From Rhizophagus irregularis (Eukaryota > Glomeromycota > Glomeromycetes > Glomerales > Glomeraceae): 64,000 nucleotides of DNA. Shown here in pieces: positions 11,329 to 56,100 of the stretch (positions are counted from its first letter, which is position 1; every line of letters begins with the position of its first letter). The position numbers and the translations under genes are program-made. The notes under the pieces are model-generated. The model made no database searches and was not told the origin of the DNA. It was given only the letters and a program-made list of their open reading frames with translations. The stretch lies in assembly GCF_026210795.1 (NCBI RefSeq), contig NC_089430.1, positions 3,906,001 to 3,970,000 on the forward strand. The letters run 5' to 3'.

Positions 11329-11419
11329 AAGATCTGCAAAGAATTTTATATATTTTTTATTTTAGACCTGAAAGATTAAAGCTCTACCATCTGACCCGAC
11401 AGATCAAGTGACCTGGCGG

Positions 11420-12660
11420 TGTAAACGGCCGAATATCAAGCACGAAAAGATGATAAAACACCACCGCCAAATGTAATTATCAAGTATTAAGAACGAACAA
11501 ATTAATCGTGGATTGGTGTGGATGGATAAATAATTAGCCGAAAAGGATAAACATTTAAGAAGAGTAATGATCTGCATGATGTAATATTTATTGAATGATT
11601 GACAAAGAACCAATAGGATAAATAGAGTCGATCATTTGCGGCTTAGCGATCTTTAACAATGAGAACGATAAGAAAGAATAATTATAAGCCACAAAAGATA
11701 GATTATAAGCAAAACACATAAAGCGGATTAAAAGAATATATAAAATAATGTCGGAAAGATTAAAGAACACAAAATAATATAAAAGATAATATAAAAAGAT
11801 GGCATAAAGATGGAACATAAAAGATAACATATCAAAAAGAACATATATAAAAAGATAACACAGCCACAAAAGATGAATTATATCTTTACGACATAATATT
11901 TGAAAGATTATTTTAAAGAAAAGATAGCACAGCCATAAAAGATGGGTTATAAATTATTTCTTTACGATGTAATATTTGAATAATAGAAAAGATAATATAT
12001 AGAATAATATATAAGATAGCATATTAAAAGATAGCGTATTTAAAATATAGATAGCACATTAGAAAGATAGTTCAAAGATAATATGTAAAAAGAACATAAA
12101 AGATAGTTTATAGATAGAATAGAAAATAGCATAAGAATTGTATATATAGAGAACGGAATTCAAAGTAATTCCATAGTTCGCATCCACAGAACTCAATAAA
12201 ATATAAGTTTCATTTAATTATTTGTTAATGAAGTTTAATATTAATTAAAGGTAATAGGTTCGCCCTAAACTTTAATTAATGTTTGATTAATTAATTTTAA
12301 TTAATGAAAATTTAAGATGAATTAAATATATACCTTTGGAAGATAATAATTCGTAGCGAGAGCTATTGCAGTTTGAAATCGAAAGTGGATATAAATTGAG
12401 GAAAATTCAGAGAAGTTAATTTTATTTTATACCGTTCAACGTTTTATATTACTAACGCTATTTATTTTGTGAACCAAGAATGTTGTTGTATATTGTTCGT
12501 TGATGTTGTTGTTCGTTAATTATGTTTTGATCGCGTGTTTGTTCGTTTGATTGCTCGTTCGTTCGTTTGTTTGTTCGCTCATTCGTTCGTTCGACCATGA
12601 GAATGCCCGTTCGATGTGGCAACCTTGTAAATTGATGACAGGGGGAATTGGGGGATCTCA
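11420..12660 (+). repeat. 5' LTR
   Basis: 1241 bp, TG...CA ends. In my by-eye comparison it differs from the 3' LTR at two places only: G at 12533 (A at 17138) and T at 12656 (C at 17261). It contains a GTTCGTTCGTTTG-type tetranucleotide-like run near 12540-12595. Open frames within it on the minus strand are present identically in both LTRs and are taken as chance. Confidence 0.95.
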
Positions 12661-12662
12661 TA

Positions 12663-12679
12663 TGGTGCATGCTCGCAAG
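12663..12679 (+). promoter_or_regulatory. Putative tRNA primer-binding site
   Basis: TGGTGCATGCTCGCAAG begins two bases after the 5' LTR. It has the invariant TGG expected to pair with a tRNA CCA end. The complement would be a tRNA 3' end reading GCATGCACCA. I do not assign the tRNA species. Confidence 0.6.
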
Positions 12680-14156: not shown

Positions 14157-15872
14157 ATGTTTAGAAGATCAAAAATAGAAATGATAAGAGTGAAATATAT
14201 ATATATAGAGAGAGGAATCCGATTGAGATTCTGGATGGATATTCATAGCAATTTAACTAAAGCATATAATGGAATGGTACCATCAATGGAAAGCGAATAT
14301 AGAACACATAAAGAGGAACACGAATTAGGAACGGAAGAATTGGATGAATGTTTAAATTGTGAATTATGTTATCCAATAGTAAATGAACCAATAGTATTCA
14401 AGAAATTTTGGGACGCGTTATTTAAATTTGAAGATGCAATAATAATATACAATGACGTAACGATTAAGGGAGTATTAGATTTATTAAGTATGAATAATTC
14501 AGAAAGGGAAGATACAATACATAAAGGGAAATGTAGATTTTTGGAAAGAAATATAGAATTTTTAGGACATATAGTAGGAAATGATGGATTGAGGCCGGAC
14601 GATAAAAAGATAGAAAAGATAAAAGAAATGAAGGCACCGACAACGGTGAAAGAAGTAAGATCATTTTTAGGACTTTGTTCATATTACAGAAAATTTGTGA
14701 AGAATTTTTCAAAGATAGCAAGACCAATAAGCGACTTGAGAAAGAAAGGAGTACCTTTTATTTGGGGAAAAGAACAACAAGAAGCGTTTGAAAAATTGAA
14801 AGAAAAGTTAATACAATATCCAATATTACGACATCCAGATTGGAAGAAAGAATTTTTATTAATAACAGACGCATCGGGAAAAGGATTAGGCGCAGTATTA
14901 AGTCAAAAAGACGAAAAAGGAAAAGAAGTAGTAATAGCATATGCAAGTAGAAGTTTATTACCAGCAGAAGAAAATTACCCGATAACAGAATTGGAATGTT
15001 TAGGAATAGTTTGGGGAATTCAACATTTTCATAAGTATTTAATCGATAGAAAATTTAAAGTAATAACAGATCACAGTGCATTAAAAGGATTAATGAACGC
15101 AAAAATACCAAAAGGAAGAAGAGCAAGATGGGTAATGGAATTACAGCAATATAATTTCGAAGTAGTACGTAGGTCGGGAAAAGAAAATACGAACGCCGAC
15201 GCACTAAGTAGATTATTAAAGATAGTGGAGGAACAACCAGAAATAGTAATAATCGATGGAGTAGACGGATTGGGAAAAACAAGTATAGTACAAAATTTAA
15301 TTAAAGAATGGGAAGAACAAGGATTAAAAGTAAGATTCAATACTTATAAAAGAAGAAGAAAAGATAAAGATGAATTTCACGAATCAAAGATGGATACAGA
15401 ATGGAAATTCAGAAAAGAAGTAGTGGAACAAATAAATAGAAGAATGGTAGAATACGATGAAGATACAGATATAATAATTTTGGACAAATCACCATATTGT
15501 GAATATTATTACCAAAAGACGAAAAGTTTTGACAGAGGATTAATTACTCCACATGGAAATCATGAGATGGAAAAAGAGATATTCAGATTGAAGGAAACAA
15601 TAGATAAATCAATAGTGATATTTTTAGAAAAAGATGGCGACGTATGTTGGAAAAATTACATTGGAAGAGAAACAAAGAAAACGGAAAAATCATCATATCC
15701 AACATTAAGGAAGAATGAATATTTGGACATGGTTAAAATGTTTGAAGAAAATCAAAGTGTGTACAAAGATACCAAAAGATACAGTCGAGTAAAAGTTAAA
15801 AATGATGATAATAGCTGGAGAAAAGTATTTAAAGAGGTGGAAAAATGGAGAATGGTTAAAGAAATTTTATGA
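14157..15872 (+). CDS. RT-tail/RNase H/thymidylate-kinase-like fusion protein
   Basis: This 571-residue ORF is the only coding region of the LTR element. Residues 1-125 resemble nothing I recognise, and the RT fingers/palm with the YxDD box are absent. Residues ~126-225 match the Ty3/gypsy RT tail (FLGHIVGNDGLRPDDKKIE, FLGLCSYYRKFV). Residues ~232-352 are RNase H: D238 in LLITDASGKGLGAVLSQ, E280 in ITELECLGIVWG, D305 in VITDHSALKG, and NADALSR. Residues ~362-571 look like a thymidylate/deoxynucleoside-kinase fold: P-loop GVDGLGKT (368-375), DKSPYCEYYYQ (443-453; compare DRYxxSxxAYQ in TMP kinases), then VIFLEKDGDVCWKN and an Arg/Lys-rich lid-like stretch. Where Ty3 elements have integrase, this has the kinase. 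The frame is intact with A-rich codon use matching the element. The kinase activity and its substrate are inference. Confidence 0.88.
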   Translation: MFRRSKIEMIRVKYIYIERGIRLRFWMDIHSNLTKAYNGMVPSMESEYRTHKEEHELGTEELDECLNCELCYPIVNEPIVFKKFWDALFKFEDAIIIYNDVTIKGVLDLLSMNNSEREDTIHKGKCRFLERNIEFLGHIVGNDGLRPDDKKIEKIKEMKAPTTVKEVRSFLGLCSYYRKFVKNFSKIARPISDLRKKGVPFIWGKEQQEAFEKLKEKLIQYPILRHPDWKKEFLLITDASGKGLGAVLSQKDEKGKEVVIAYASRSLLPAEENYPITELECLGIVWGIQHFHKYLIDRKFKVITDHSALKGLMNAKIPKGRRARWVMELQQYNFEVVRRSGKENTNADALSRLLKIVEEQPEIVIIDGVDGLGKTSIVQNLIKEWEEQGLKVRFNTYKRRRKDKDEFHESKMDTEWKFRKEVVEQINRRMVEYDEDTDIIILDKSPYCEYYYQKTKSFDRGLITPHGNHEMEKEIFRLKETIDKSIVIFLEKDGDVCWKNYIGRETKKTEKSSYPTLRKNEYLDMVKMFEENQSVYKDTKRYSRVKVKNDDNSWRKVFKEVEKWRMVKEIL

Positions 15873-15985: not shown

Positions 15986-16010
15986 AGTTATTTGTGAGGT
16001 CACAAATAGC

Positions 16011-16024
16011 GAAGAGGGGGATAA
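16011..16024 (+). promoter_or_regulatory. Polypurine tract
   Basis: GAAGAGGGGGATAA directly abuts the TG of the 3' LTR. It fits the plus-strand primer site of an LTR retrotransposon. Confidence 0.75.
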
Positions 16025-17265
16025 TGTAAACGGCCGAATATCAAGCACGAAAAGATGATAAAACACCACCGCCAAATGTAATTATCAAGTATTAAGAACG
16101 AACAAATTAATCGTGGATTGGTGTGGATGGATAAATAATTAGCCGAAAAGGATAAACATTTAAGAAGAGTAATGATCTGCATGATGTAATATTTATTGAA
16201 TGATTGACAAAGAACCAATAGGATAAATAGAGTCGATCATTTGCGGCTTAGCGATCTTTAACAATGAGAACGATAAGAAAGAATAATTATAAGCCACAAA
16301 AGATAGATTATAAGCAAAACACATAAAGCGGATTAAAAGAATATATAAAATAATGTCGGAAAGATTAAAGAACACAAAATAATATAAAAGATAATATAAA
16401 AAGATGGCATAAAGATGGAACATAAAAGATAACATATCAAAAAGAACATATATAAAAAGATAACACAGCCACAAAAGATGAATTATATCTTTACGACATA
16501 ATATTTGAAAGATTATTTTAAAGAAAAGATAGCACAGCCATAAAAGATGGGTTATAAATTATTTCTTTACGATGTAATATTTGAATAATAGAAAAGATAA
16601 TATATAGAATAATATATAAGATAGCATATTAAAAGATAGCGTATTTAAAATATAGATAGCACATTAGAAAGATAGTTCAAAGATAATATGTAAAAAGAAC
16701 ATAAAAGATAGTTTATAGATAGAATAGAAAATAGCATAAGAATTGTATATATAGAGAACGGAATTCAAAGTAATTCCATAGTTCGCATCCACAGAACTCA
16801 ATAAAATATAAGTTTCATTTAATTATTTGTTAATGAAGTTTAATATTAATTAAAGGTAATAGGTTCGCCCTAAACTTTAATTAATGTTTGATTAATTAAT
16901 TTTAATTAATGAAAATTTAAGATGAATTAAATATATACCTTTGGAAGATAATAATTCGTAGCGAGAGCTATTGCAGTTTGAAATCGAAAGTGGATATAAA
17001 TTGAGGAAAATTCAGAGAAGTTAATTTTATTTTATACCGTTCAACGTTTTATATTACTAACGCTATTTATTTTGTGAACCAAGAATGTTGTTGTATATTG
17101 TTCGTTGATGTTGTTGTTCGTTAATTATGTTTTGATCACGTGTTTGTTCGTTTGATTGCTCGTTCGTTCGTTTGTTTGTTCGCTCATTCGTTCGTTCGAC
17201 CATGAGAATGCCCGTTCGATGTGGCAACCTTGTAAATTGATGACAGGGGGAATTGGGGGACCTCA
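16025..17265 (+). repeat. 3' LTR
   Basis: 1241 bp, same length as the 5' LTR with two substitutions noticed. It is followed by the GCGG target duplication. A diverged reverse-oriented relative is the solo LTR at about 38484-39433. Confidence 0.95.
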
Positions 17266-17384
17266 GCGGGTTGACCTGAAATATTCAGATTAGGTCATCA
17301 AATTCATGACCTGATATGGGTCAGGTTCGTGCTAGTCAGTATCTGACTTGACCCATTGATCTGATATATATTTAAGTCAAATAA

Positions 17385-18600
17385 ATTAAAAAATGCTGAA
17401 ACTAATAGTTCTGGCATTTTTGTATATAAAATCAAAAGAAAAACTGCCAGAATTAATGATTCTAACATTTTTACATGTAAAATCCAAAAAAATGCTAAAA
17501 CTAATAGTTTCAGCATTTTTACATGTAAAATCAGAAAGAAAAATGCTGGAACTAATAATTCTGGTGTTTTTACATGTAAAATCAAAAAAATGCTAAAACT
17601 AATAGTTTCAGCATTTTTACATGTAAAATTGAAAAAAAAGCTGAAACTAATGATTCCAGCATTTTTACATGTAAAATTGAAAAAAAAATGCTGAAATTAT
17701 CAGTTTCAGTGTTTACATGTAAAATTAAAAATAAAAATGCCAGAACTAATAATTCTGATATTTTTACATAATTACATGTAAAATCGAAAAAACTTTAAAA
17801 CTATCAGTTTTGGCGTTTTTATATGTAAAATCAAAAAAATGCTAAAACTATCAGTTTTGGCGTTTTTACATGTAAAATCAAAAAAAATGCCAAAACTATC
17901 AGTTTAGCGCTTTTATATGTAAAATCAAAAAGAAAAATGCCAGAACTAATAATTTCAGTGTTTTTACATGTAAAATTGAAAAAAAACTTCGAAACTATCA
18001 GTTTTAGCGTTTTTACATGTAAAATCAGAAAAAAAATGCTGGAACTAATAATTCTGGTGTTTTTACATGTAAAATCAAAAAAATGCTAAAACTAATAGTT
18101 TCAGCATTTTTACATGTAAAATTGAAAAAAAAGCTGAAACTAATGATTCCAGCATTTTTACATGTAAAATTGAAAAAAAAATGCTGAAATTATCAGTTTC
18201 AGTGTTTACATATAAAATTAAAAAGAAAAATGCCAGAACTAATAATTCCGATATTTTTACATAATTACATGTAAAATCGAAAAAAACTTTAAAACTATTA
18301 GTTTTGGCGTTTTTACATGTAAAATAAAAAAAAATGCTAAAACTATCAGTTTTAGCATTTTTATATGTAAAATCAAAAAGAAAAATGCCAGAACTAATAA
18401 TTCCAGTGTTTTTACATGTAAAATTGAAAAAAACTTTGAAACTATCAGTTTTAGCGTTTTTACATGTAAAATCAAAAAAAAATGCCAGAACTAATAATTC
18501 TGGCATTTTTACATGTAAAATTAAAAAAATGCTAAAACTAATAGTTTCAGCATTTTTATATATAAAACAAAAAATAAAATGCCAAAACCTGACATTTTTC
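17385..18600. repeat. Palindromic satellite, ~58-bp units
   Basis: Roughly 20 units alternate two nested palindromes: TGCCAGAACTAATAATTCTGGCA-like blocks (variants TGCTGAAACTA..TAGTTTCAGCA) and TTTTTACATGTAAAA. Nearly every unit can fold into a hairpin on either strand. Lack of stops produces open frames of up to 175 codons on both strands that are repeat artefacts (FTCKNAKTDSF-type iterations). It forms most of the body of the hAT-like element. Confidence 0.9.
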
Positions 18601-19290: not shown

Positions 19291-19309
19291 GCAAAGCAAT
19301 CCCGAATAT

Positions 19310-20110
19310 ACTTTGAAAAACGTTTCACAACGTTTTTTCTTTAAATTAATTGAAAAAATGTTGCGAAACGTTTTTTTAATTATAAAATAGTTTGAAAAAA
19401 CGTTTCACAACATTTTTCTTTAAATTAATTGAAAAAATGTTGCGAAACATTTTTTTCAATTATAAAATACTTTGAAAAAACGTTTCGCAACGTTTTTTCT
19501 TTAAATTAATTGAAAAAACATTGCGAAACGTTTTTTCAATTATAAAATACTTTGAAAAAACATTTTGCAACGTTTTTTCTTTAAATTAATTGAAAAAATG
19601 TTGCAAAACATTTTTTTAATTATAAAATAGTTTGAAAAAACGTTTTGCAATGTTTTTTCTTTAAATTAATTGAAAAAATGTTGCGAAACGTTTTTTTCAA
19701 TTATAAAATACTTTGAAAAAACGTTTTGCAACGTTTTTTCTTTAAATTAATTGAAAAAACATTGCGAAACGTTTTTTTCAATTATAAATACTTTGAAAAA
19801 ATGTTTCGCAACATTTTTTCTTTAAATTAATTGAAAAAACGTTGTGAAACGTTTTTTTCAATTATAAAATACTTTGAAAAAACATTTTGCAACGTTTTTT
19901 CTTTAAATTAATTGAAAAAATGTTGCGAAACATTTTTTCCAATTATAAATACTTTGAAAAAACGTTTCGCAACATTTTTTCTTTAAATTAATTGAAAAAA
20001 TGTTGAGCAAACGTTTTTTTAATTAAAAGCACTTTAAAAAAATGTTTCGCAATATTTTTCATTAAATTAGTTAAAAAAATGTTGCATAAACGTTTTTTCT
20101 TATTAAATCG
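19310..20110. repeat. ~79-bp satellite of paired palindromes
   Basis: About ten units each carry AAAAAACGTTTCGCAACGTTTTTT-type palindromes joined by CTTTAAATTAATTGAAAAAA and AATTATAAAATACTTTG. The core appears in variants (CGTTTCGCAACG, CATTTTGCAACG, TGTTGCGAAACG). The motif AACGTTTTTT also occurs in the 31-33 kb array. Confidence 0.9.
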
Positions 20111-26575: not shown

Positions 26576-28282
26576 TCATGTAAGGTGGTTATACCTAAAA
26601 GAAATATTTAATAGCTCATGCACTCGATGTGTATGAGCATATTGCGAGAATGAAACATCAACATTATCTACGTCCTGCCCTCTGAAAAAATGATTCTGCC
26701 AATTATCTTTTACTCTCCTCGCCAAAAACACATTAGAAATATTATGCGGGTGCTTAAAAATCTGGTCATATCGGAAATACCCAGATGGATCAATAGCCGG
26801 TCCAGATTCCAGAATCATCTTTCGAGCATCAATCAAAATCTTGCGACGAACTCTACTATCATCATAGTCTGCGATATGTCCACCAAAGACTTCTGTTACC
26901 CAATTCATTGATGACATTACGTGAACCGTATTGCTTCCTGAACAAGCTTTAATCAATTTGTGAAAATCGCGTGCACGAAAAAAATCGCAAATATTACTCC
27001 AAGACATTGTTGATGCATTCAATTGCTTAATTGAATTTAACAACTCGGAATCATCACTAACCATTTGAAAATGCAGGTAGATTTCCATCATTTCTATAGG
27101 CGGTGATAACCAAGTGCAAACTTTTGCAATTGCATCTTCAAGGAAATTGCAAAGTGCATCTAAAAAACTAGTATTTTCACGTTGATATTTAGGTAGAATA
27201 GCATTCACTGGCATCATATGAAGCATAAATTCGCTTGCCGAGTGTGGTGAAATCCCATCATTGCAGTTAAACATCGTAATACTTGCAACTAGATTTTTTG
27301 GTTGTTGGTCATTCATGAGTGGAAACTCACCAGTAAGGATATGACGCGCGACTTGTACACGATCTCGCGGTTCAACAAGATTTGGAACAATAGCAAATAT
27401 GCTGTCTGTTTTATCAAAAGTACTTGCCCAAAGATCATGTGCATTTTTCCGGGATTTCGGCGAGCTAACTGACTGACACCAGTGAGAAATCAACGATCTA
27501 ACTTCCGGGTGAAGCTCTTTTTTAGTAGGGTTTGGTGGTTTGTCATTCGGTGCATTTTCAAATTGCAAGACATTCTTGGCAGCAATCTTAAAGTAATTTA
27601 AAGTTTCAACTGTCCAAACAGTAGAAAGCCAAACTTCTATGATTGACCGAACTGGTGCCTTTCTCATCATCATTTCCACAATCACATTGGTCTTTGCAAC
27701 CGCATAAACAGATCCTTCATAACCAATAAATTTGTTTGGCTGTTTCGTTGAATTCTCATTTTGTACAATTGTAGCTTGTAAAAGTAAATCTAAATCTACA
27801 AATCCGACAGCAACATGAACTTTACCTTGATTAAGTGATAGGCTTTGCTTATGCGTATTACTAAAGCTCAAAGCACATGAACCTGTATCCGAAAAATATG
27901 GTATAGCTGTTGTTCTAGCAAAAATGTCGCCAATTTGCCTGGGGGATGAGAGAAAATCTGAAAGTTCCTTTGACCATGAACGCCATCTCCCTATTTTGTT
28001 GTCTTTGAATTGTAAAATCGTATCTATGGAATCTTCATTATATTGTAGGTTTCCTTGCACATGCGCAAGGAGTTGGATTTGGTTTTTTTCACGCTGATAT
28101 TTTTCAGCATAATCTCGTTTGAAATTAGGTACAATGGCTTTAACAGCTGGTTGCTGCGTTACGCATATTTCCTTGTGATCTTTATAGTCTTGTTTTTGGC
28201 ATGCCTTAGAACAGTAATATGTTTGTTGGCATCTCGAACATCGGTCCTTGCAAGGTTTCTGGCAGACATTGCATTTATTCAT
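26576..28282 (-). CDS. MYND-type zinc-finger protein
   Basis: This is an intact 568-residue single-exon ORF starting at ATG 28282. The N-terminus is a complete MYND zinc finger: C4-x2-C7 ... C15-x2-C18 ... C24-x3-C28 ... H36-x3-C40, within CSRCQQTYYCSKACQKQDYK. MYND fingers bind proline-rich protein motifs and are common in fungal regulatory and ubiquitin-linked proteins. The remaining ~525 residues show no domain I recognise, no membrane segment and no SET motifs, so I do not call it a SMYD methyltransferase. Absence of introns and of stops over 1.7 kb, with more balanced base use than the surroundings, supports a real gene. Gene-poor repeat DNA lies on both sides. Its partner and role are unknown. 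Confidence 0.9.
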   Translation of the reverse strand: MNKCNVCQKPCKDRCSRCQQTYYCSKACQKQDYKDHKEICVTQQPAVKAIVPNFKRDYAEKYQREKNQIQLLAHVQGNLQYNEDSIDTILQFKDNKIGRWRSWSKELSDFLSSPRQIGDIFARTTAIPYFSDTGSCALSFSNTHKQSLSLNQGKVHVAVGFVDLDLLLQATIVQNENSTKQPNKFIGYEGSVYAVAKTNVIVEMMMRKAPVRSIIEVWLSTVWTVETLNYFKIAAKNVLQFENAPNDKPPNPTKKELHPEVRSLISHWCQSVSSPKSRKNAHDLWASTFDKTDSIFAIVPNLVEPRDRVQVARHILTGEFPLMNDQQPKNLVASITMFNCNDGISPHSASEFMLHMMPVNAILPKYQRENTSFLDALCNFLEDAIAKVCTWLSPPIEMMEIYLHFQMVSDDSELLNSIKQLNASTMSWSNICDFFRARDFHKLIKACSGSNTVHVMSSMNWVTEVFGGHIADYDDSRVRRKILIDARKMILESGPAIDPSGYFRYDQIFKHPHNISNVFLARRVKDNWQNHFFRGQDVDNVDVSFSQYAHTHRVHELLNISFRYNHLT

Positions 28283-37800: not shown

Positions 37801-40520
37801 AATTTATTATTTAGTATTATTGTGAAAGTGATTATGAATATCAGCCTGTTTTAGATTTTCTATAATTAGCAATTTAATTCGCTTATACAACTCTCTTAAA
37901 ACTTTTAATTCATTATTTATTTTACCAAATTCTGGTGTTTGTTCATATAAAAATCTTATTATTTTATTTGCAGCATCATCTGCTTCTACTAAACTAACTT
38001 TTCCAATACAGGTAGAAATTCATCTTTATCTATTAAAAACTCTTCTTTATTATTTGCATTTAATATAGTATCAATTATTTCATTATCAGTAAATCCTTTT
38101 TTTGGCATTTTATTATCTATATGAAGATACTCATACATGTACATTAAGATTACTTTTTGGAAGTTGAGCAATTAGCATATCAAGTTCCTTAATTTTTCTA
38201 TCTAATGTACTAAAAATTTAATATGTGCATTATTAAAATTTTATAATAATTTCTATATATACATCTTGTTATATCATATCTATCAGAGAGTTATTGAATT
38301 ATAAATTTTTAGAAATTTCTTCAATTTCATTATTTGGTGAAAGAATACCTGTTTTTTCCAGCAATTTGAAATTATTTAAGATGATACCATAGATCATGCT
38401 TCAGCTGCATTTTGCAAAGCATCATAAATTGTATAATCATTAAGTTTTTTTTATAATATCATCTTGCATATTATTATATGCATTGAGATTCCCTAATTTC
38501 CTCTTTCATCAAAATAAAGAGTTGTCACATCAAATCAGCATTCTCATGGACGATCAAACAAATAAACAAACAAACAAACAATTATGATCAACAAATAATA
38601 ATATTTCACATAAAATAAATCATGTTAGTAATACAAAACATCAAATGATATAAAATAAATTCAACTTCTCTAAATTTTCCCCATAATTCATCCTTTTATT
38701 AACATTTTCAAACTTCGATAGCTTTTATTATGAAGTATTTCATATTTATTTCAACTTCAAAAATTCAATAATTCTCATTACGAAAGTGTATATTTATTTC
38801 TTCTTGTGGTTATTATTAAAAAATTAAATATTAATTAAAACTTAGACGAACCATAAGTATATTCGAAATAACTTTTAATAATTAATATTTTATTGAGTTA
38901 CACTAAACTGTGAGATTCACTTTAAATTCCACTCCTATTTATACTTTTACAAATTTGATTTTCTATTTTATGTGTTATACTTTCTTTCATCTTTTTATTC
39001 TATTTTTTTCTAATCTGTTACTTTCTATTCTAATCATTCAATAAATATTACATTATAAAGAAATATTCTATCGTAAAGAAATAATCTTTTCAAGAAATAA
39101 TCTTGTAAAGAAATAATCTAATACTTATCAATTATTTCCAACTTATAATCTATACTTTGTGACTTATAACTACTCCTCCTAATTATTCCTATTGATGAAC
39201 TTGATAAACTTATTATTTTATTCCTATTGATGAGCTCAATAAACTGGTTGTTATGTTATAATCGATCAACTTCCTAATTAATCTATTTGATCTTCATTAA
39301 TTATTCAATAAATATTACATCATGTAGATTATTTCATTTTCCAAATGTTTATCCTTCTGGCTAATTATTTATCCAATTATGTGACTTTCTATCATATGAT
39401 CTTTCATTCAATACATTATTCTTCCATATTACAAGGTTATCCCGATATCTAGGGTCACAGTATAAATAATCCAAAAAAGTTTATATTTATAATGATATTT
39501 AAATGAATGAATTATATCTGCATCACATGATTGAAGTTTAGGTGTAGTATTTGGTGGTAAAAATTTTACTTCTATACTATTTAATTTTTCACGAGTTTTA
39601 TTTAAAATGAAATACACTGGTGCATTATCAATTAATAGAATGATCCTTCTATTTTTTTTTTTCATTATTTCATTAAGTTTAAAAAGAATCATATTAAAAA
39701 TATATACTAACTTGCACCCAAGCTTTATTGTTCCAAAAATAATAAACTGAAAGGTTCTTATAATTAATATTTCTTATAACGTATGGAGCTTTGTATTTAT
39801 AAATAAATAAAAGGGATATTTTTTCTATTCCAGTTGCATTTATTGCACAAAAAATTGTAACTTAAGATTTTTTTTTCTTATGTTCTGATAAAAAACTCAT
39901 GCTAATATTCTAAAAGGTTCCATTTTTCAGAAAAAACCAGTTTCATTCCCATTCCAAATATTCTTAGAATTGTAAAATGCAAGAATCTGTTATAAAGTAA
40001 GTCGGTCATGTTCTATTGATTTAGCAGAAAGTGCACTTGTGACTTCACTTTGCTTCTTGTATTGGCATAAACTATGATGTTTTTTAAGGTCAATTAATTA
40101 TTCATCTGGTTGATGAAAATCTTCTATTGAAAACTGGTTAGTAAAATAACTTACCTTTATTTTTAAAATATTACTATCAATATCTTGTTTTATATTAAAT
40201 GCATTGTCAACCCAAAAAGTAAGTGCATTTTTAAGTTATGACTACTTTGGACCACAAAATTTTTCAATACTTTTTTAATTTTCTGTAATTGAAAGCTATT
40301 ACTCTTTTTCTTTTAAAATATTTTTTATTGTTGATTTTCTAATATGATATTATTGTGCAAAACTAACGTTAAAAAGGTTAGAATTTTTTTTTATTTTACA
40401 AAGTTCATGTTTTTATGTAGCAAAAAGGATAACTTTCTTTCTTGACATATCAGAATTTTTAAAACAAATTTTTCTGTTTCTGATAAGAAAAGATTGTTCA
40501 CATTTTGGTAAAATAGATTA
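37801..40520 (-). pseudogene. Tigger/pogo-type DDE transposase, broken
   Basis: Reading the minus strand from ~40520, recognisable pieces appear in order through several frames. First is a helix-turn-helix-like segment (SFAQ, then HIRKSTIKNILKEKE). Next come WNGNETG and VTIFCAINATGIEKISLL (catalytic region) and VYYFWNNKAWVQ. The fourth piece is IILLIDNAPVYFILNKTREK and KFLPPNTTPKLQSCDADIIH (39429-39692; compare DNxxxH...FLPPNTTxxLQPxD in DDE_1 transposases). The C-terminal pieces are AEAWSMVS and NCWKKTGILSPNNEIEEI (~38310-38420) and DNEIIDTILNANNKEEFL (37989-38171). Stops, frameshifts and an LTR inserted at 38484-39433 show it is dead. The His of the DNxPxH motif appears as Tyr. The function would be cut-and-paste transposition with TA target sites. 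Confidence 0.75.
38484..39433 (-). mobile_element. Diverged solo LTR in reverse orientation
   Basis: The sequence starting TGAGATTCCCTAATTTCC and continuing CATCAAAATAAAGAGTTG, GCATTCTCATGGACGATC aligns with the complement of the 3' end of the LTRs at 11.4-17.3 kb (TGAGATCCCCCAATTCCC; GCATTCTCATGG). Similarity continues (TTACTAACATG, TTCTCTAAATTTTCC) to about 39433. No internal region or partner LTR is present, so it looks like a solo LTR. It is far more diverged than the young pair and splits the Tigger pseudogene. Confidence 0.65.
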
Positions 40521-53189: not shown

Positions 53190-56100
53190 CTATGGTTCTA
53201 AATCAATAGTAGAAGGACAGGCATCACAATCCAAAAATCCTTGAAGATAAGTAATCATACAGTTGGCAAAAAGCTTGTATGAAGGGTGAGAAAAAATTCT
53301 TTGCCATGAAGCCACATGAGATGATAGGAATCGACCAAACGCTTGTTGGATAGAGAACGGCAACAGTGTGAAAAGCGCGGAAAGAGGAGTGACTGAGGCC
53401 AAACCAGCCTTCTGTCGAATAAGAGAGAGCATTGGAGAAACCATGCGATTAATGGTAGATTCAGCAAATAATGTGGTTTGAAGGCGAAATTCTAGCCTTG
53501 GAAGTAAGACAATGTTATAAAGATAGGCCACATGTTGTGCCAAAAGCTTTTTAGGACTGAGTAGAGCAGCCATGTCTTTGACCATGGAAGTACATTGATC
53601 ATGAACAAAATGAGAGGAAGCTGAAAGACAAAACCAGACACCTAAAAAATGGAAAGATTTAGATAAAGCTAACGCCTTCAATGTAAGGGAACAAATAGGG
53701 ATTAAGGGGGATGGAAAAAGATCAAACACTATAGTTTGAGAAAATTGTTCAGAAGAAAGAAGGATATATTTTGCAGAATTCGCTTGAGTATTATTTAAAG
53801 TATAGAATTCAGCAGTAATGGAAAGGCGATCTTCAATTCCTCGTTTAGATGAAGCAATCAAAGTAGAATCATCCATAAATGTAATATGCGAAACAGGAAG
53901 ATTGTATTGTTCATATTCAATTGGAGAATAATCCAATAATGCAGAAGATTTCAAAATAAAAGGATCACAAGCATCTCGATTAAGTATGGTAAGCAAAGGA
54001 TCCAAGTAAATAACCCATAATAATGGAGAAATGATTTCACCCTGGTCAATACCAATTTTAACTCTATATCCAGAAGTATCACCATGATAGGTAATAATTT
54101 TATTATTACGTCTTGTAAAAAGATTAATGATAAATTTGATCAGTAAAGACGGTATGTGTAGACGAATTAGAGCTAGTCTGAGCATATTCAAGTCAATTGA
54201 GTCGAAGGCCTTAGAAATGTCCTGAGAAACAATCCATAACTCTTGGGCATCAGTTTTATCAAAACGTCGTTGATGAATAATAGCATCAAGCATCTTAATA
54301 GGAATATCAGTAGAACCACCTGGTAATCCAGCAAAATTACCACCTTGGAGCACTTGATTGTCAGCTAGGATCTTTGAAAGCCGAATTGTAACAACCTTAA
54401 CCACACATTTCCGAACGGTTTCCAATAAAGTGATAGGACGCGTATTCTTTAATTGTGCATCAAATTCATGAGGCTTTGGAATGGGATAAACAAGCGCTTC
54501 ACGCCAATCAGCAGGAACATCTCCATGAATGAGACAGGCGTTAGCTAAGACAAGGGATAAATTAAAAGCGTCGCCAGTTAAATGTTTGAGCATTTCATAA
54601 GAAATTTTGGAAGGACCAGAGGCTTTATTGTTAGGCATAGAATTGAGAATGTTCTTCCATTCATCTTCCAGAATAGGAGACATGACCGAATTATATAATG
54701 ACGAATCAATATCAGAAAGAGGAGAATATGCTCTTTGCCATCGTGGAGGAAATGAATCCGTGGAAGAATACTGGACCAAAGGAGGAGTAACAACCGATTG
54801 AAAGTGTTTAATAGCAGCTTGTTTGATATCTAAAGGATCAGTAAGTAATGTGGGTTTGGAGTCAATAACAACCAAGACTCTATCAAGAACGATAGAATGA
54901 TGTTCCACTGATAGGGCTGAAGAAATAAAAGAGCCCGGAGACGTAGAGAAATGTTCATCTCTAAGAGCAGTATAATATTCAATAGAATCTACACGATGCT
55001 GATGAAATTGCGTGGAAAGATAAGCTGAGACCAAAGCCTTTTGTGAATGTAAAAATTTAACAAAAGTGAAAATTGGCGTTGTACTATAAGAAGGTATAGT
55101 ATAATCTGTTAAAAGAGATTTAAGGAGGATTAATTGGATGGGTAAAGAATTAATCATTTGTGAAATTTGAGCAGGACGACTAGGCTGAGACGTGGTCAAT
55201 TTAAACAATAATCTATCCAAGAATTTGTTGATAGCAATAAGCATGGTAAGCTCAGGAGGATATTTATGATGGTGAGTATTAGATACATGTTGAAATGGTA
55301 AAGAGTCAATGGCACCACCAAGAATAGAACGTTTAAGAGCGTGCCAAAGTTTATCCAGGGAAAGGGCTGAAAGTGAAGATATGGAGGGATAATGTGTGGA
55401 CAAGTATAACTCAAGACGTGAGTTCACTTCATTAGAAAATTTATCCCAAGTATCTTCGTTCAAGTTTTTATAAAGAAAAATGGTGCGTTGTTCGCTTTTT
55501 TGCTTTATTCTAGCTTTAGCTAGAGTAGCGAAACAAGAGCTAAAATCAAAAGCCGTTGTAAGTACTCGGTGATCGGTAAATTGATTATCATTCAACTTAG
55601 GGCAAGTTTCAACATGAGAGAAAAGACCAGGAGCAGGAAATCCAGGGGACGACCAAATATAATCAAGTCTTGAAGAACCATTCTGATAATAGAAGGTAGG
55701 ACTTGGACCTGAAATTGAAGAGGTATGGGATTGATGATCCGTAAAATATCGAGAAGAAAGTGATCGCAAAATTTTTAAATGATGTCGAGGAAGATGTGAA
55801 TGTGAAATTTCATCTGCATTAAAATCACCAAGGATGACTACATGATAATTATTAGAATGGGCATTATCAAGCCACAAATTAAGTTGTGCAAAAATAGCAT
55901 CGCATTCTTTATAATGAATAGAATGATAAGGAGGAATATAGACAGAAATAATAGAAATTTTTGTTTGGTGGAAAAAAAGATCTAGTTTTAAAAGACGACC
56001 TTTCCAAGGATCAATCTTCTGAACATGTTTATGCAAAGGATGGCAAAGTAAAAGATAAGCCCATCGTGAGGTCGTGAATTAGAAGGAGAGGGAGCCCAAT

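Follow-up and report, generated by a model that had tools for sequence, protein, structure and literature searches.

Retroelements depend on the deoxynucleoside triphosphate (dNTP) pools of their hosts, and to our knowledge dUTPase is the sole pool enzyme known in Pol. The non-primate lentiviruses FIV, EIAV, and visna have dUTPase in pol, after RNase H and before integrase (PMC4531489), fungal Ty3 elements of Postia, Phanerochaete, and Tuber also encode it (PMC2864245), and the bdelloid rotifer elements Juno, Vesta, and TelKA are long terminal repeat (LTR) elements with dUTPase and captured extra open reading frames (ORFs) (PMC5408684). Here we describe an ORF in a 64-kb stretch of the 146.7-Mb Rhizophagus irregularis genome (C2:3906001-3970000, the window) in which the tail of a reverse transcriptase (RT) and RNase H are fused to a domain resembling thymidylate kinases (TMKs) and deoxynucleoside kinases (dNKs). 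There is good support for a nucleotide-kinase-like domain that is kept under selection in Pol by a lineage of LTR retrotransposons.

The kinase resembles the lentiviral dUTPase in being a nucleotide-pool enzyme in the same slot between RNase H and integrase. However, dUTPase is not a P-loop kinase, and the R. irregularis Pol is split into several frames and has a fungal host. The fungal dUTPase elements are likewise LTR elements with a captured nucleotide-metabolism domain, but the enzyme is another one, found in Postia at the N- or C-terminus of Pol or between protease (PR) and RT, and not in the slot after RNase H. In the bdelloid elements dUTPase lies between PR and RT, and the word "kinase" does not occur in the text available from PMC5408684. 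The original prediction for this locus, made from the sequence alone, had stated rightly that some retroelements carry dUTPase; no Pfam match to dUTPase was obtained for the window ORF or 20 related proteins. As far as the accessible text goes, a paper on R. irregularis transposons does not use the word "thymidylate", and the kinases in the passages shown are signalling kinases (PMC8647823), while a survey of fungal LTR elements mentions additional inserted domains and complex elements, and "kinase" nowhere (PMC3248453). Searches of the open-licence PMC literature, which leaves most subscription journals and Repbase outside, gave nothing for "thymidylate kinase" together with "LTR retrotransposon" or "Rhizophagus irregularis", and no paper announcing such a fusion was found there, judged by listings and the starts of abstracts.

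The Window Copy

The ORF is open for 571 codons without an internal stop, and the Pfam families RT_RNaseH (129 bits) and RT_RNaseH_2 (127 bits) both match within residues 203-332. It lies in an element with the near-identical LTR pair, TG...CA ends, and target-site duplication of Ty3-type elements. The features are as follows, where L053 is a longer cut of a sibling copy, L011, of the same family (family A).

11416-11419: target-site duplication GCGG, 5' side, pairing with 17266-17269
11420-12660, plus strand: 5' LTR, 1241 bp, TG...CA, two mismatches to the 3' LTR
12663-12676, plus strand: putative primer-binding site TGGTGCATGCTCGC, from reading the sequence
14157-15872, plus strand: reported ORF, 571 amino acids; residues 1-43 probably non-coding, likely start Met44 (14286)
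14289-14537, plus strand: N-terminal Gag fragment, residues 45-127, 98.8% to ORF1 of L053
14528-14537, plus strand: deletion junction 1 (Gag/RT tail), 10-bp overlap of two parental segments
14529-14762, plus strand: C-terminal part only of RT, residues 125-202, without the YxDD core
14763-15215, plus strand: RNase H domain, residues 203-353 (Pfam)
15237-15854, plus strand: TMK/dNK-like kinase domain, residues 361-566 (Pfam, fold, PHROG)
15258-15281, plus strand: P-loop GVDGLGKT, residues 368-375
15483-15515, plus strand: DKSPYCEYYYQ motif, residues 443-453
15654-15671, plus strand: lid-region motif NYIGRE, residues 500-505
15842-15852, plus strand: deletion junction 2 (kinase end/3' internal end), 11-bp overlap; integrase lost
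16009-16024, plus strand: polypurine tract GCGAAGAGGGGGATAA just 5' of the 3' LTR, from reading the sequence
16025-17265, plus strand: 3' LTR, 1241 bp
17266-17269: target-site duplication GCGG, 3' side

For residues 1-43 no significant match to ORF1 of L053 was obtained while residues 45-127 are Gag, and translation therefore probably begins at Met44 or later. With the RT portion starting only near residue 125, the catalytic core of RT is missing. Of a complete pol only the RT tail and RNase H remain; PR, the RT core, and integrase are all absent, and no integrase was found in the 152 bp between the ORF stop and the 3' LTR. Alignment to sibling copies resolves the internal coding part into three parental segments: the leader with the start of Gag, the stretch from RT tail through RNase H to kinase, and the 3' end. 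The overlaps at the junctions would fit template switching during reverse transcription. Since the LTRs differ at no more than two positions, the insertion is recent. No tRNA genes were found in the window, and no primer tRNA was matched to the primer-binding site.

Judged from its sequence, the ORF is a deletion chimera of Gag and an RT tail rather than an intact pol, and the window copy is a recently inserted, non-autonomous deletion derivative of an R. irregularis Ty3-type LTR retrotransposon. The original prediction was right about the LTR retrotransposon and about a single 571-residue frame in which a Ty3-type RT tail and RNase H are joined to a kinase-like domain, but not in taking the frame for intact. 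The motifs GVDGLGKT and DKSPYCEYYYQ stand at the residues it gave; NADALSR, at 346-352, is one residue off.

Parent Families

The window ORF has at least 97 matches in the R. irregularis genome, spread over many contigs. All 29 other family-A loci excised from these (L010-L038) have the order RT, RNase H, kinase. At 22 of these loci a long integrase match follows the kinase, split in two at four loci, and at seven it is absent or a stub, so that, contrary to the first proposal, the kinase does not stand in place of integrase. These 22, together with L054 (family B) and L055 (family C), have the Ty3 order of PR, RT, and RNase H with integrase last. Elsewhere in the Glomeromycotina, a single polypeptide of R. 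clarus, P0034, spans RNase H, kinase, and integrase, and kinase proteins are also known from Glomus cerebriforme. The best database matches of the window kinase, at 95-100% identity, are named R. irregularis. Some entries have been named thymidylate kinase automatically, meaning that annotation pipelines have already seen the domain.

In L053 the open frames comprise Gag (1201 codons), PR (170), RT-RNase H-kinase (706), and integrase (411). Family B has the same pol layout, while in family C RT and RNase H share one frame and kinase and integrase another. From these layouts the kinase sits between RNase H and integrase in all three families, joined to either neighbor.

Two database proteins, P0013 and P0014, join an RNase H nearer family B to a family-A-type kinase, and these mosaics suggest recombination between families. 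UGA-CUA is a known context for stop readthrough. Gag and PR are in phase, split by a single UGA (UGA-CUA-CA) in L053 (position 3891), L054 (3796), and L055 (3402), and Gag-protease may be made through such readthrough; a string search found the same letters upstream of PR in 29/29 of the family-A loci, frame unchecked. The RT frame is -1 relative to PR in these three loci, one per family, and in A and B integrase has a frame to itself, in which an ATG lies close to the start.

Many of the proteins in the databases are short kinases with neither RT nor integrase attached, as would be expected if kinase-bearing ORFs were host genes that had landed on, or been captured by, single elements. This is very improbable given the fixed site of the kinase in the copies read, on many contigs, where it follows RNase H and precedes either integrase or the 3' LTR. 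Moreover, three of the four genomic matches to the Thymidylate_kin profile have no match to the element kinase, and the fourth (L051, C6:4454486) is an element-type kinase piece. No RT, RNase H, or integrase match accompanies L051 in the stretch fetched.

The Kinase Domain

With the thymidylate kinases (PF02223, PHROG 761) the domain shares fold, P-loop, and overall length. In a Foldseek comparison the whole-domain kinase model matched the TMK/dNK superfamily fold, the P-loop conforms to the GxxxxGK[ST] of this superfamily, and the D and K of DKSPY are listed as invariant in a 46-row alignment. The best full-length family match was PHROG 761 "thymidylate kinase", which aligned with a 219-residue kinase piece from residue 10 to residue 212 (E 1.9e-13), and the sibling kinase P0032 scores 30.2 bits with Thymidylate_kin, above the curated cut-off of 27 bits. 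The conserved motifs persist among element kinases merely 54-65% identical to that of the window. A chance resemblance or an unrelated ATPase is ruled out by fold, PHROG match, and conservation. FtsY tops profile searches of PDB sequences over the P-loop and adjacent helix alone, and was not counted as homology.

The fold evidence, taken from a model, cannot tell a dTMP kinase from a deoxynucleoside kinase. The first Foldseek match was Giardia dAK, human dCK and AbmG fit as well as the TMKs do, and the Pfam dNK family spans the whole length of the sibling kinase P0044, weakly (16.8 bits, E 0.006). The DKSPYSEYFYQ motif is also, we assume, reminiscent of the ERSxYSxRY motif of dNKs. Such a salvage kinase, feeding reverse transcription from nucleosides, is a possible but rather unlikely identity for the domain, as Pfam dNK gave no match to the window protein at E 0.1, the best full-length family is the PHROG thymidylate kinase, and no glutamate is seen at the position of the EP of phage kinases, in a loosely aligned region. 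In dNKs (PF01712) an acidic EP-type motif after strand 2 holds the catalytic base.

Selection on the Kinase

Fifty family-A kinases were taken from the 97 matches: the 30 best, including the window copy, and 20 hand-picked from lower rows; one of the 50, L085, is divergent. The picking passed over several rows with stops (e.g., C18:605632, C15:2210594, C29:869261, C12:4620708), so that the 46 of 50 without stop or gap overstate intactness. The ratio of nonsynonymous to synonymous polymorphism (pN/pS) was 0.083 in the 46 intact copies (codon bootstrap 0.055-0.122), 0.095 over all 50, and 0.094 in eight copies without integrase, against 0.85 and 1.67 in wrong-frame controls; copies were ranked by similarity to the window protein, which could depress pN somewhat. 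Segregating sites at codon positions 1, 2, and 3 numbered 34, 21, and 93 in the 46. Within family A, pN/pS was 0.023 for RT (28 copies), 0.031 for RNase H (30), and 0.084 for the kinase (30), and in family C 0.110 for the kinase (8/9 loci) and 0.111 for integrase (4/9 loci). The kinase is constrained, yet less so than RT and RNase H. At the protein level (300 pairs from 25 proteins) it exceeded RNase H in conservation in the two classes of pairs with the greatest divergence (68% vs. 56% and 70% vs. 64%).

That the window copy is a defective product of deletion, and that the lineage has a sister family without kinase, would both suit a functionless captured fragment carried as a passenger. For the family such a passenger is refuted by the pN/pS values of families A and C set against the wrong frames, and by motifs kept at 54-65% identity; it is a slim prospect, conceivable for the window copy alone. 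The original prediction had asked for selection between kinase copies, and it is purifying; its two refuting outcomes, an unrelated P-loop ATPase and a solitary fusion in neutral decay, are not what was found. Its term thymidylate-kinase-like holds for fold and PHROG 761, and not for the Pfam profile (see below).

Phylogeny and Origin

An RT-RNase H tree was built from 31 rows, of which 20 bear the kinase, five belong to the kinase-free family D, and six are other Ty3 rows of the same genome. It placed the kinase-bearing rows and family D in one clade with support of 100/99, apart from the six; the kinase-bearing group excluding D had 73/68. At this support for the placement of D, one gain and one loss, or one gain after the split from D, would both fit. 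Family D (L086-L088, L091-L095) has an RT-RNase H frame of 497 codons. No kinase match was found downstream of RT-RNase H in L096 and L097, the two of the six outside rows that were read. L097 (1258-2389) is a Ty3 copy in which RNase H is followed, ahead of integrase, by about 300 additional residues that include cysteines, and L101 is close to it by RT-RNase H.

In a kinase tree five metagenomic Nudix-kinases fell outside all element kinases, with long branches among them flagged. The closest kinases found outside elements are the metagenomic Nudix-kinase proteins P0116, P0135, P0136, and P0039, which unlike the element proteins have no RT; their Nudix domain is above the Pfam cut-off in P0116, P0039, and P0135. 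The element and Nudix-kinase profiles align over 224 columns (E 3.6e-58), from a point some 36 residues ahead of the P-loop. Of five Nudix-kinase models, the best (pLDDT 85.6, against 57-76 for the rest) shows these residues as the last strand and the helices that follow the Nudix fold, so the element families bearing this leader seem to retain the tail of a Nudix domain. The leader is not present in the window subfamily.

The kinase was probably acquired once in the element lineage, and the donor was probably a Nudix-kinase fusion protein. None of the matches listed for the host genome extends into the Nudix part; 117 of the 157 candidates were scored, and a copy split by introns might be missed. 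A profile scan of prokaryote genome contigs confirmed no kinase relative, tblastn of phages found none, and a profile scan of viral contigs with the first kinase alignment gave none; with another alignment it gave eight loci, mostly P-loop-only matches, TMK-like frames among them. These scans do not support a prokaryote or phage donor and identified no donor.

The domain might instead act on nucleic-acid ends, or serve Pol as an NTP-driven remodelling or regulatory module, for instance in 5'-end phosphorylation or RT-integrase assembly. Weak generic P-loop matches (AAA_28, AAA_33, and AAA_14, in window and related proteins), the junction to RNase H (A, B) or integrase (C), and the basic KRRR stretch would suit such a role, but over its whole length the domain matches nucleotide and nucleoside kinases, both in fold and in PHROG, and its nearest relatives outside the elements carry a Nudix domain, likewise a fold that processes nucleotides, which makes such a role improbable.

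Proposed Role

The explanation we favor, with somewhat better than even confidence, is that the window holds a deletion copy of a Ty3 family whose Pol kinase supplies dNTP precursors near RT. The parent family encodes Gag, PR, RT-RNase H-kinase, and integrase. Its kinase, which lies after RNase H and ahead of integrase, would most likely be made as part of Pol, travel in the virus-like particle, and phosphorylate a deoxynucleotide precursor (a dNMP, possibly dTMP) beside RT, and would thereby enlarge the local dNTP supply wherever the pools of the host are small. We give an even chance to the fuller proposal that a whole Ty3-type lineage captured the kinase once, from a Nudix-kinase protein, and retains it under strong selection in the slot before integrase as a particle-borne maker of dNTP precursors for reverse transcription; this would be the first nucleotide kinase in the Pol of any retroelement.

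Several results weigh against the explanation that we favor. Thymidylate_kin aligns over ORF residues 366-533 with 22.2 bits, below the cut-off. A DR[YH]-type motif is a hallmark of thymidylate kinases, and the element kinase, embedded in Pol unlike these, reads DK. A basic NxFKRRR stretch stands where the compared phage kinases have EP, in a loose part of the alignment; with either change the substrate may differ. In family A the kinase has a pN/pS higher than those of RNase H and RT by a factor of 2.7 to 3.7, and constraint is weaker in family B (kinase 0.323 in 13 copies, two divergent; RT 0.141; RNase H 0.196). In the three closer classes of protein pairs the kinase falls behind RNase H in conservation (71 vs. 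75, 84 vs. 93, and 96 vs. 99%). Host TMK exons on C13 are distinct from the element kinase, with the cellular TMK located as partial exons only. Finally, in the three family-D copies, out of five, that were read downstream, RNase H is followed at a distance of about 250 bp by integrase, and the gap contains no kinase match.

Placed in the slot of the lentiviral dUTPase, a kinase under selection would represent independent convergence on the need for dNTPs, and it makes directly testable the idea that retrotransposition in cells that seldom divide is limited by the supply of dNTPs. Kinase-bearing and kinase-free sister families in one genome also make a clear case of domain capture.

Other Features of the Window

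Pieces of a related degraded LTR, 73-81% identical, lie on the minus strand at 38484-38739 and 39264-39375. A tandem array with units of roughly 48 bp occupies 17440-18500, and similar short tandem repeats, judged by eye, 19300-20100. The minus strand also has a non-LTR retrotransposon-like ORF of 948 amino acids with endonuclease and RT domains (53190-56036) and an ORF of 568 amino acids with a MYND finger (26576-28282).
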